A stretch of DNA of 52,718 bases from Rhodobacterales bacterium. Its GTDB lineage: Bacteria > Pseudomonadota > Alphaproteobacteria > Caulobacterales > Hyphomonadaceae. Under the pieces are notes generated by a model, which was not told where the DNA came from, made no database searches, and saw only the letters and a list, made by a program, of their open reading frames with translations. How positions within the stretch are numbered: position 1 is the stretch's first letter; every line of letters begins with the position of its first letter. The translations under genes were made by a program, and so were the position numbers. Positions 22,474 through 25,361 of this stretch are shown in pieces. The stretch covers positions 1-52,718 of the forward strand of contig JACXUV010000016.1 of the NCBI GenBank assembly GCA_014763715.1. Reading direction: 5' to 3'.

Positions 22474-23097
22474 TTAGCCGCGGCCAGTCATCCGCAGGAA
22501 GCGGTTACGCAGGTCTGCATCCGATTTGAAGACGCCGGTGAACTGCGTCGTGATCGTGGACACGTCCTTGTGGTGCACGCCGCGCGTCGACATGCACTCA
22601 TGCACCGCATCGATCAGGACGGCCGTGCCCATCGGGGCGAGGCTTTCGGTGATCGCGTCGCAGATCTGGGACGTCATGGTTTCCTGTGTCTGCAGGCGCT
22701 TGGAGAAGATCTCCACCACGCGGGCCAGTTTGGAGATGCCGACAACCGCTTCGGTCGGCATGTAGGCGACATAGGCCTTGCCGAGGAAGGGCGCCATATG
22801 GTGCTCGCAATGGCTTTCCACATCGATGTCGCGCAGCATGACGATGTCGTCATAGCCCTGCACATCCTCGAAGGTGCGCGAGAGGTATTTCACCGGGTCT
22901 TCGGTATAACCGGAGAACCATTCCTTGTAGGCATTGACCACGCGTTTCGGCGTATCGATCAGGCCTTCGCGGGCCGGGTCATCGCCCGCCCATGCGATCA
23001 GCGTGCGAACCGCTTCTTCCGCTTCAGCCTGTGTTGGGCGCTTCACGGGTTCCGCGCGCGCGACTTCGTTCTTCGGTGTGATGGCGTCCATGGCCAT
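22474..23097 (-). CDS. folE: GTP cyclohydrolase I
   Basis: 207-aa enzyme that converts GTP to 7,8-dihydroneopterin triphosphate, first step of folate and other pterins. Zinc and active-site elements are present: VESHCEHHMAPF (Cys and His ligands) and HECMSTRGVHHKD (second Cys), with the QTQETMTSQI motif between. A 30-residue N-terminal extension before the core is normal for the type. ATG 23097 has AAGGA at suitable distance. Convergent with the sulfotransferase gene. Confidence 0.97.
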   Translation of the reverse strand: MAMDAITPKNEVARAEPVKRPTQAEAEEAVRTLIAWAGDDPAREGLIDTPKRVVNAYKEWFSGYTEDPVKYLSRTFEDVQGYDDIVMLRDIDVESHCEHHMAPFLGKAYVAYMPTEAVVGISKLARVVEIFSKRLQTQETMTSQICDAITESLAPMGTAVLIDAVHECMSTRGVHHKDVSTITTQFTGVFKSDADLRNRFLRMTGRG

Positions 23098-23290
23098 AGT
23101 GTAGGAGTCCTTCGACTGAGGGACGGGGGTCGAGCCGGGGCGTCCCTTGAAGGTCTTTCACGCCTTCTGCCCGGACTTAACGCCCGCCCGGAGTTTGTAC
23201 CCTCAGGGCGATAATCTGGAACATAAGGGGGCAAGTGCCCCGTTTCCAGCGGATTCTACGGTGACGGAAGGTCACCGGATCACTGCCGAG
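23098..23290. other. gene-free region upstream of folE and the cysS leader
   Basis: Holds the 5' region of folE (minus) and, nearer cysS, two small hairpins: GGGGC/GCCCC at 23228-23241 with a 4-base loop, and CGGTGAC/GTCACCG at 23259-23277 with a 5-base loop. No convincing folE -35/-10 pair and no RNA gene were seen. Confidence 0.5.
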
Positions 23291-23319
23291 TTGCCTTTCG
23301 TGGCGTCAACTGGTATCGC
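23291..23319 (+). promoter_or_regulatory. candidate promoter of the cysS leader, implying a leaderless transcript
   Basis: TTGCCT (23291-23296) and TATCGC (23314-23319) with a 17-base spacer. A transcript starting 7-8 bases after the -10 would begin at or within a base of the ATG at 23327, so the leader ORF would be translated from the very 5' end. No Shine-Dalgarno precedes that ATG, which agrees with leaderless initiation. Confidence 0.5.
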
Positions 23320-23326
23320 CCGGCCC

Positions 23327-23377
23327 ATGTTCGCGCGCGCACTGACCCTTTCCTGCCGCTGCTGTTGTTGCCGCTGA
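23327..23377 (+). CDS. polycysteine leader peptide upstream of cysS
   Basis: A 16-codon ORF encoding MFARALTLSCRCCCCR, with five Cys among the last seven residues, ending 78 bases before the cysS start. Such a peptide makes sense as a sensor: ribosomes would slow on UGC/UGU codons when charged tRNA-Cys is scarce. The Cys codons and the stop lie in the hairpin described at 23364-23416. Comparable leaderless polycysteine ORFs act as cysteine-responsive attenuators in mycobacteria; finding one before cysteinyl-tRNA synthetase in an alphaproteobacterium is an inference from sequence only. Confidence 0.6.
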   Translation: MFARALTLSCRCCCCR

Positions 23378-23416
23378 GGCCACAACGCGCCATTAGGGCT
23401 GTCAGACGCTGACCCT
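23364..23416 (+). promoter_or_regulatory. two-hairpin region between the Cys codons and cysS
   Basis: Hairpin A: GTTGT-T-GCC (23364-23372), loop GCTGA, GGC-C-ACAAC (23378-23386), one T-C mismatch; it contains the last three Cys codons and the leader stop. Hairpin B: AGGG (23395-23398) and TCAG (23402-23405) pair with CTGA and CCCT (23409-23416), with a 3-base bulge. No T-tract follows B, so control would act on translation of cysS or by Rho rather than by an intrinsic terminator. Confidence 0.4.
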
Positions 23417-23455
23417 GCCGGCATATTCCCGAACAAACCCGATCCAGAGACCCAC

Positions 23456-24841
23456 ATGACCATTCGCCTTTACGACACCGCTGCGCGTGAAAAGCGCGTT
23501 TTCGAGCCGCAGGACCCCAAACGTGTGACGATGTATGTCTGCGGGCCCACGGTCTATAACTATGCCCATATCGGCAATGCCCGCCCGCCGATCGTGTTCG
23601 ATGTGCTGCGCCGCCTGCTGATGCGTGCCTATGGCGCCGACGCAATCGTCTATGCCCGCAACATCACGGACATCGAGGACAAGATCATCAAGGCCTCGCT
23701 GGAAAGCGGCGAGCCGATTGCGGCGATCACGAAGAAATATGCCGATATCTACAATGCTGATATCGCCGCGCTGAACGTGCTGCCGCCCAGTATCGAACCC
23801 TGGGCGACGAACCATGTGGCCGAGATGATCGACATGATCGAAAAGCTCGTCCGCCGGGGCTATGCCTATGTCGGCAAGGAAGGCGTATGGTTCGCGGTCA
23901 AGCAGATGCCCGATTATGGCAAACTGTCGGGCCGCAAGCTGGAAGACAATGAGGCCGGCGCCCGTGTGGAAGTCGACGCCGACAAGCGCGACCCCGCCGA
24001 TTTCGCCCTTTGGAAATTCGCCAAGCCCGGCGAGCCGGAAGATGCGATCTGGGACAGCCCCTGGGGCAGGGGGCGGCCCGGCTGGCATATCGAATGCTCC
24101 GCCATGGCGGCGAAGCACCTCGGCAAGACGATCGACATTCATGGCGGCGGCATCGACCTGCAATTCCCGCATCACGAGAACGAGATCGCCCAGTCCGAAT
24201 GCGCGCACGGGCAGGTGATGGCCAATTACTGGCTGCACAACGGCTTCCTCGACATGAGCGGCGAGAAGATGTCGAAGTCGCTCGGCAATGTCGTGCTGGT
24301 GCATGACCTCCTGAAGGCATGGCCGGGCGAAGTGCTGCGCTTTGCCATGCTGAGCGGGCATTACCGCGCGCCGCTGGACTGGACCGAGGACCTGCTCAAA
24401 CAGGCCAAGACTACGCTCGACCGGATCTATGGCGCCCTGCGCCGGGTGTGGGAGGCCGAAGGTGGCGAGGCCCGCGATATGGGCGTGCTGCGCGCGCTGG
24501 AGGATGACCTCAACACGCCGGAAGCGCTCGCCGAGCTTTCCCGACTTGCGGGCGAAGCGAACACGGCGGCAGACCAGAAGGACGCGGTCGCCATGGCGAA
24601 TGCGAAAGCGAACCTGCTGGCAGCAGGCAAGCTGCTGGGCCTGCTGACGCTGACCCCGAAAGACTGGGAGCAGGGCGGCGATGAGGATGGCAATGCCCGG
24701 ATCGACGCGCTGGTCCAGGCCCGTGTTGATGCCCGCGCCGCCAAGGACTGGGCCGAAGCTGACCGGATCCGCAATGAACTCGCTGCCGAGGGCATCGAGA
24801 TCATGGACGGGGCAGGCGGTTCGACCTGGCGCAGGGTCTAG
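23456..24841 (+). CDS. cysS: cysteinyl-tRNA synthetase
   Basis: Class I aminoacyl-tRNA synthetase charging tRNA-Cys; 461 aa, full length. The ATP-binding HIGN motif is at His38-Asn41, KMSKS at 271-275. The zinc-binding cysteine is in MYVCGPTVYN, with further ligands in WHIECSAM and HHENE. The C-terminal DALVQARVDARAAKDWAEADRIRNEL segment is the conserved end of the family. It is preceded by a candidate Cys-rich leader peptide (23327-23377). CAGAGA about 7-12 bases upstream of ATG is only a weak ribosome site, consistent with controlled initiation. Confidence 0.98.
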   Translation: MTIRLYDTAAREKRVFEPQDPKRVTMYVCGPTVYNYAHIGNARPPIVFDVLRRLLMRAYGADAIVYARNITDIEDKIIKASLESGEPIAAITKKYADIYNADIAALNVLPPSIEPWATNHVAEMIDMIEKLVRRGYAYVGKEGVWFAVKQMPDYGKLSGRKLEDNEAGARVEVDADKRDPADFALWKFAKPGEPEDAIWDSPWGRGRPGWHIECSAMAAKHLGKTIDIHGGGIDLQFPHHENEIAQSECAHGQVMANYWLHNGFLDMSGEKMSKSLGNVVLVHDLLKAWPGEVLRFAMLSGHYRAPLDWTEDLLKQAKTTLDRIYGALRRVWEAEGGEARDMGVLRALEDDLNTPEALAELSRLAGEANTAADQKDAVAMANAKANLLAAGKLLGLLTLTPKDWEQGGDEDGNARIDALVQARVDARAAKDWAEADRIRNELAAEGIEIMDGAGGSTWRRV

Positions 24842-24902: not shown

Positions 24903-25361
24903 ATGAGCGAGCTTTACCACAACCGCATTCTCGAACTGGCCGCCGGCATCCCGCATGTCGGGCGGCTGGCCGATGCCGAAGGCTCGGTGACCAAGGTGTC
25001 CCGCGTCTGCGGATCGGTCGTGCATGTCGACCTGAAGCTGGACGAGGCGGGCGAAACTGTAACAGATATTGCGGTGGAGCCGCAGGCCTGTGCCCTCGGG
25101 CAGGCGGCAACGGCGATCCTGGCAGAGCATGCCATCGGGGCGCCCGTCTCCGAGATCATCGCGGCCCGCGATGCCCTGAAAGCCATGCTGAAAGAGGGCG
25201 GCGCCCCGCCCGAAGGCCGCTTCTGGGAACTACGCCACTTGGAGCCCGTGGCCGACTATCCCCCCCGCCACACCTCCACCCTGCTTGCCTTCGAAGCCGC
25301 CGTTGCCGCCATCGAAGAAGCGCTGCAGAAACGCGCCGCAGCCCGTGCCCCAGCAAAGTAG
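24903..25361 (+). CDS. IscU/NifU-like Fe-S cluster scaffold, two-cysteine type
   Basis: 152-aa protein of the IscU/SufU/NifU-N family that assembles Fe-S clusters. The first two cluster Cys are present, Cys36 in VCGSV and Cys63 in QACALGQ, but the third, usually in a xCS segment, is replaced by RHTSTLLAFEA (122-132), and the Asp two after the first Cys is Ser. This variant is widespread in Alphaproteobacteria, so it is probably not decay. It could assist Suf assembly instead of acting as a classical scaffold. YidD overlaps its 3' end. Confidence 0.82.
   Translation: MSELYHNRILELAAGIPHVGRLADAEGSVTKVSRVCGSVVHVDLKLDEAGETVTDIAVEPQACALGQAATAILAEHAIGAPVSEIIAARDALKAMLKEGGAPPEGRFWELRHLEPVADYPPRHTSTLLAFEAAVAAIEEALQKRAAARAPAK

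Follow-up and report, generated by a model that had tools for sequence, protein, structure and literature searches.

The region in front of cysS in the window (the whole 52,718-nucleotide stretch of DNA analysed here) is likely to be a leader-peptide attenuator for this gene, in which a ribosome stalled on cysteine codons would prevent the formation of a hairpin, stem I. At its core lies a 16-codon leader ORF that, as judged by its conservation in Hyphomonas, is real and under selection. When charged tRNA-Cys runs low, this leader would probably raise the synthesis of cysteinyl-tRNA synthetase. As in attenuators, a short ORF rich in Cys codons is followed by a gene that handles the same amino acid, and the attenuator reading is drawn from the in-frame enrichment of Cys codons, the invariance of Cys14 and Cys15, the fixed length of 16 codons and the fixed promoter spacing.

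The leader ORF and its predicted promoter

The promoter region is the divergent intergenic region between folE and cysS. The genus of the window is Hyphomonas, and a search of named genomes matched its CysS protein, at 90% identity, to Hyphomonas beringensis. The features of the locus are the following:

22474..23097, minus strand: folE, the divergent neighbour (NCBIfam TIGR00063/NF006825)
23291..23296, plus strand: predicted -35 element TTGCCT, whose TTG lies 23 bases before the -10 TA in 35/35 Hyphomonas leaders
23314..23319, plus strand: predicted -10 element TATCGC, preceded by TGG (TG.TA), with TG.TA conserved in 35/35
23327..23377, plus strand: leader ORF MFARALTLSCRCCCCR*, 16 codons, predicted leaderless, read directly
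23354..23371, plus strand: Cys codons 10 and 12-15 of the leader, with Cys14 and Cys15 invariant in 33/33 distinct leaders
23456..24841, plus strand: cysS, cysteine--tRNA ligase (NCBIfam TIGR00435, 510 bits against a cut-off of 340)

Direct reading of the DNA agrees with the base-level description given in the earlier note: TTGCCT is followed by a 17-base spacer, TATCGC, 7 bases and the ATG at 23327, no Shine-Dalgarno sequence precedes the leader ORF of the window, and 78 bases separate the leader stop from the cysS start at 23456. A strict sigma-70 scanner did not find this promoter in the leader region of the window, so the predicted element rests on its conservation. In addition to the constant distance between TTG and TA, the 35 genomes keep 13 bases (29 genomes) or 12 bases (6 genomes) between the TA of the -10 element and the leader ATG, and an SD-like tetramer is suitably placed before this ATG in 4 of the 35 leaders. 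From this constant spacing, transcription is predicted to begin at the leader ATG or 1-2 bases from it, and a leaderless start of the Hyphomonas cysS leader is a well supported prediction.

The conservation of the ORF was followed in 42 Hyphomonas genomes, 40 of which could be judged, since one holds only a fragment of the gene (G066) and in another the contig ends 27 bases upstream (G053). An intact ATG leader ORF of exactly 16 codons was found in 36 of the 40, lying directly before cysS in each of them and ending in CCC, CCCC, CCCR or CCR. The leader ORF is absent from G068, G069 and G073 (3/40), and in G051 (locus L040) it is interrupted by an internal stop at codon 11. The CysS N-termini of these genomes resemble those of the leader-bearing ones, and loss or breakage of the leader beside similar N-termini would suit a dispensable regulator.

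The leaders were analysed jointly in 35 of the 36 intact genomes (G071 was added later), which carry 33 distinct leaders. Codon 14 encodes Cys in 33/33, always as TGT, and codon 15 does so in 33/33 as well, and at codons 8-12 Cys occupies 54 of 165 positions in frame against 8/132 and 9/132 in the other two frames. The remaining residues vary between species, as do the number and spacing of additional Cys. The first ten codons after the ATG show little conservation: over nucleotides 4-33 the mean column entropy is near 1.5 bits for each of the three codon positions. Invariant Cys codons, an in-frame excess of Cys and free N-terminal codons together point to a leader that is read for its codons rather than to a functional peptide. 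The earlier note had proposed to look among relatives for a Cys-rich ORF with coding constraint, and in Hyphomonas the comparison bears this out.

Two further observations concern the neighbouring genes. Just 3' of cysS, at 24906-25358, lies a gene whose product resembles the Fe-S scaffolds SufU and NifU (TIGR01994, 64 bits, under the cut-off of 92.5), which is possibly cotranscribed with cysS and would hence share its control. On the other side, a 15-mer, CGGGCGTTAAGTCCG in the folE sense (window 23172-23186, minus strand), is conserved upstream of the divergent folE. Counting duplicates, 69 of 363 loci have it, including 39 of the first 40, which are Hyphomonas, with 0 expected in the window, and it appears also in loci of other genera and of one other family. 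The folE leader (about 23098-23225, minus strand) gave no credible Rfam match and no clearly better fold than its shuffles (z -0.55), and it contains GCGUUAAGU, which may resemble the THF-II (folE) riboswitch.

Leader RNA structure and the output step

Several elements can be placed in and after the 3' part of the leader ORF:

23364..23386, plus strand: stem I (hairpin A), in which CAAC pairs with the final Cys codons and the stop upstream of it
23389..23399, plus strand: candidate stem II, a small one (GCC-AUUAG-GGC), with 88.9% of the cells and no covarying columns paired among 18 sequences
23391..23396, plus strand: conserved CATTAG, at an offset of exactly 13 bases from the leader stop in 35/35
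23395..23416, plus strand: stem III (hairpin B), weak, with no U-run after it, 5/35 reaching the 5% level

As a whole, the RNA from 23327 to 23500 folds no better than shuffled sequences (z 0.55), and a search of 22900-24000 with E up to 1 against Rfam, which may or may not include uORFC-8-2 (a published cysS leader discussed below), gave no match. Hairpins A and B can both be drawn as the earlier note described them, and they fared differently: hairpin A is supported and hairpin B is weak. In stem I, GUUG of the last Cys codons pairs with CAAC after the stop. When the post-stop arm is shuffled, no more than 5% of the shuffles match the real fold in 21 of 35 species (mean z -1.7). Column tests used 18 sequences of the 36 intact ones, namely those that lie on the plus strand among L001-L030. 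In this set 68.8% of the stem I cells are paired, against 66.4% for shuffles, of which 21 out of 500 come as high; a register slid by 3 reaches 75.0%. Neither stem I nor stem II displays convincing column covariation, for which the earlier note had proposed to test, in the case of stem I partly because the repeated GUUGUUG permits two registers. Stem I is nevertheless supported as a more-than-chance pairing, and comparison of the genomes likewise argues for the ORF, its Cys codons, its frame, its length and the promoter spacing as conserved features.

The motif after the stop is CATAG in 9/35, one base having been lost, and CATTAG in the others. Its 13-base offset from the stop is invariant in all 35 with the loop included, which marks an additional constraint. 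Elsewhere in the genome of the window, the 13-base motif GCCATTAGGGCTG gave two matches with one mismatch, against 5 for the reversed control pattern.

According to the mechanism that we favour, the A of the leader ATG would be the first base of the transcript, and a ribosome would initiate there with no Shine-Dalgarno sequence. When charged tRNA-Cys is scarce, this ribosome would stall on the Cys codons, of which 14 and 15 are invariant and the others lie earlier, and cover the 5' arm of stem I, which would be prevented from forming, and more full-length cysS mRNA would result. With an ample supply of Cys-tRNA, the ribosome would finish and leave, stem I would form and cysS would be turned down. 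The stalling, the direction of the response and the action on transcription are what we infer.

Several ways in which stem I might be coupled to cysS were considered. Regarding intrinsic termination, a U-rich tract (at least 6 T in 9 bases) occurs in 6 of 35 species, and all six make up clade C (G043, G039, G064, G041, G050 and G065). Outside clade C no stretch of 9 bases holds more than 4 T. In the species of the window, which belongs to clade A, fewer than 6 T were found in any 9 bases from 25 past the start of stem III to cysS. A scan for hairpins with a T-rich tail matched 3 of the 6 clade C species (G043, G039 and G064) and a single one outside this clade, G044 of clade B, whose stem II hairpin is followed by the tail CTATATAT.

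A classical switch between pairings 2:3 and 3:4 seemed initially promising. Simulated stalling in 35 species increased 2:3 in 32 and decreased 3:4 in 31, the pairing of GGGCUG moving from its downstream to its upstream partner, but shuffled controls behave much alike. Controls were then resolved by clade on 34 sequences, with G056 (alike to G055) and G051 omitted. In clade C the predicted ribosome-dependent switch beats all 25 control replicates in both measures, whereas in clades A, B, D and E the controls equal or exceed the real value in 25, 25, 21 and 16 of 25 replicates for pairing 2:3, and in 24, 21, 20 and 16 for pairing 3:4. The hairpin switch that the earlier note envisaged is consequently not supported for the clade of the window.

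A different output would be translational attenuation, in which stalling alters the pairing of the RNA and thereby exposes the cysS ribosome-binding site. The absence of a U-run terminator in 29 of 35 species speaks in its favour, as do the mycobacterial leaderless polycysteine ORFs, which are reported to act on downstream translation. However, when the RNA was folded without the part of the leader that a ribosome stationed at Cys14 or on the stop codon would have passed or covered, the predicted access to the cysS start was equal in both states, with means of 0.642 and 0.647 respectively, and higher on stalling in 19/35. Ribosome-free RNA is less open (0.546), leaving room for a weak effect. 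Sequestration of the cysS start is thus not supported, and we regard translational attenuation as unlikely. What stands of the earlier proposal is therefore the polycysteine leader ORF with its Cys codons inside a hairpin, and what finds no support in the clade of the window is the switch together with the changed access to the cysS start.

Rho loading may or may not contribute. A C-rich spacer was considered as its sign and dropped, since the C excess is not confined to genomes with a leader. In the final 48 bases upstream of cysS, C is 0.35 and G 0.21 in the 35 leader-bearing genomes, and C is 0.30 and G 0.22 in 24 family members without a leader. The same measure before 41 long ORFs of the window gives C 0.32 and G 0.32, the G content of the spacer before cysS being lower.

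Part of the conservation might instead reflect a hidden DNA element, namely a second promoter composed of TTGC within the Cys codons, 17 bases and CATTAG, that would explain both the invariant TGT at codon 14 and the CAT(T)AG motif at its fixed 13-base offset in 35/35. This reading appears improbable, as CATTAG fits the TATAAT consensus by eye at 3 of 6 positions and lacks the final T, the motif is shortened by one base in 9/35, and the sigma-70 scan gave no match. Moreover, it leaves the in-frame Cys codons 8-12 unexplained, and pairing with CAAC also accounts for the codon choice. Still weaker is the idea of a small functional Cys-rich peptide, a metal or redox sensor and not a stalling device: Cys does lie near the C terminus in 33/33 distinct leaders, but the residues other than Cys14 and Cys15 vary, further Cys differ in number and spacing, and the ORF stands directly before cysS in all 36 genomes bearing one, so we give it very little credit. 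Finally, a chance ORF, conceivable given that short ORFs are common and that the leader fold is ordinary, is refuted because the genus as a whole keeps the frame and length of the ORF, its Cys codons and the spacing of the promoter.

Cysteine leaders described in other bacteria

Leaderless polycysteine ORFs were reportedly described in mycobacteria by Canestrari et al. in 2020. They are reported to combine a short leaderless ORF, contiguous Cys codons and responsiveness to cysteine, as is predicted for the element of the window, but they belong to another phylum and precede cysteine biosynthetic genes rather than cysS. Control of cysS itself by a cysteine leader has been proposed in print under the name uORFC-8-2, in a paper whose author is said to be Brewer.

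In this paper (PMC8632094, 2021), 145 cases before cysS genes of Rhodobacterales are described, with a pair of tandem Cys codons followed by an intrinsic terminator, and control by charged tRNA-Cys is proposed for them; the earlier note, which knew of no description for this lineage and for cysS, was thus wrong on novelty. uORFC-8-2 and the leader of the window are alike in being AUG uORFs before cysS in Alphaproteobacteria and in their tandem Cys codons, which in uORFC-8-2 are mostly codons 14 and 15. uORFC-8-2 has two prominent stems, the first with the Cys codons; of their putative counterparts in the window, stem I is supported and stem III weak. The two differ in that a 3' U-run follows in all cases of uORFC-8-2 and is missing from the element of the window, and in that uORFC-8-2 is described only from Rhodobacterales (PMC8632094). 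As the species of the window lacks a stretch with at least 6 T in 9 bases, its leader is not counted as a member of uORFC-8-2. In PMC8632094, the word "leaderless" does not appear in the main text, nor "Hyphomon" in the text.

According to PMC1262725, Cys leader peptides precede cys operons in Mycobacterium and a few other Actinobacteria. These leaders too have their Cys codons close to the stop, they lack a conserved terminator hairpin, and termination by Rho is weakly suggested there, but they control other genes in another phylum. A leaderless start is in turn known from trpL of Sinorhizobium meliloti, whose transcript begins with the AUG of the leader ORF (PMC7298713, PMC10117765). As is predicted for the element of the window, this alphaproteobacterial attenuator starts at its leader AUG; it concerns trpL and trpE(G), involves tryptophan instead of cysteine, and has its transcription attenuation described as established (PMC7298713, PMC10117765). 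Among the matches listed from the open-licence literature, no description of a cysteine or cysS leader in Hyphomonas, Caulobacter or rhizobia was found, and passages on Caulobacter and Sinorhizobium in other papers mention none. The gene, the codons and the principle of cysS control by a Cys leader have been published already, for a neighbouring order.

Cysteine leaders beyond Hyphomonas and a possible shared sensor

Within the genome of the window, a Cys-Cys-Cys-x-TRR pattern has 17 matches, one of them the cysS leader, against 10 for the backwards pattern. The other 16 were discarded: 7 end in TGG, an in-frame start is missing from 3, the starts of 1 are all TTG, and the remaining 5 lie inside or over longer ORFs. 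No convincing second poly-Cys leader was found in this genome with a pattern that covers only CCC-x-stop endings.

In another genus of the same family (g3), a Cys ORF lies at most 150 bases from cysS in 8 of 14 genomes read. An SD-like tetramer precedes a candidate start in 8/8, which makes the start there look Shine-Dalgarno led. Six further genera of the family yielded a candidate leader in 1 of 16 genomes (G085), by a looser Cys-uORF rule. In four other families of the order, an ATG uORF with CC or at least 3 Cys was found in 0 of 20 genomes read, and the looser rule gave one weak uORF ending 192 bases before cysS. As a separate observation, two loci of family f14 (L106 and L108) share a 15-codon uORF starting MTCRCCRKNTTES, with its Cys at the start rather than at the end.

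Cys leaders also occur in a large family, that of genome G416, which we take to be Rhodobacteraceae on the basis of its fit to uORFC-8-2 and of a 71% CysS match to Paracoccus homiensis in 1 of 61 members searched. Out of 41 genomes searched, 39 with cysS, 30 loci were examined, and Cys leaders before cysS were found in 20 of the 30, the cysS start being uncertain for some of them. A promoter rule requiring TTG 22-24 bases before TA and TA 10-16 bases before ATG is satisfied by 15 of these 20 leaders, against 15 of 2062 ATGs on the stored strand of the same loci. Two other families were tried as leader-bearing Rhodobacterales and put aside: f17, whose 30 loci hold three isolated Cys-containing uORFs and no recurrent leader, and f33 (12 genomes), after inspection of the upstream DNA of three loci.

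A further type of leader combines Cys and Ile. ORFs of 14-16 codons with both residues precede cysS in 6 of 15 loci listed as Hyphomicrobiales or neighbours, in a class-wide list that carries no chance control. The six are from Rhizobium (two), Ensifer, Mesorhizobium, Bradyrhizobium and Devosia (L176, L180, L195, L209, L214 and L205), with MKTVICIICRKIIR and MKTKCTIIACIITC as examples, and L176 and L195 share the codons TGC ATT ATC TGC with the G416 leader. None of the six passes the promoter rule for TTG 22-24 bases before TA. By eye, the Rhizobium, Ensifer and Mesorhizobium leaders are preceded by CTTGAC and then, at about the usual spacing, by CATAAA, GATAAG or GATAAA some 6-7 bases before the ATG, and these leaders would also be leaderless; the Bradyrhizobium and Devosia leaders give no clear picture. 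In E. coli, excess cysteine causes isoleucine starvation.

Within the searched literature, the apparently new aspects are the Hyphomonas form with no U-run and the putative clade-wise change of its output, the predicted leaderless start, which extends to the 15 of 20 presumed-Rhodobacteraceae Cys leaders, and the candidate Cys/Ile leaders before some rhizobial cysS genes. It is conceivable, though we hold it only tentatively and think it rather doubtful, that a single leaderless cysteine sensor serves cysS in Hyphomonas and in the presumed Rhodobacteraceae alike, and perhaps in Alphaproteobacteria at large. Its sensing end, an ORF with Cys codons and fixed promoter spacing at the very 5' end of the transcript, would have been kept, and its output rebuilt. 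In such a scheme the output would be an intrinsic terminator in Rhodobacterales, a terminator plus antiterminator in one Hyphomonas clade, and a terminator-free device linked to stem I and CAUUAG in the other clades, including that of the window, and a neighbouring genus would have exchanged the leaderless start for a Shine-Dalgarno sequence. If this were true, one amino-acid sensor would have been re-used with different output devices inside a single genus, and leaderless translation initiation would be tied to amino-acid sensing in Alphaproteobacteria. With leaders that are intact, broken or absent, Hyphomonas constitutes a natural comparison set.
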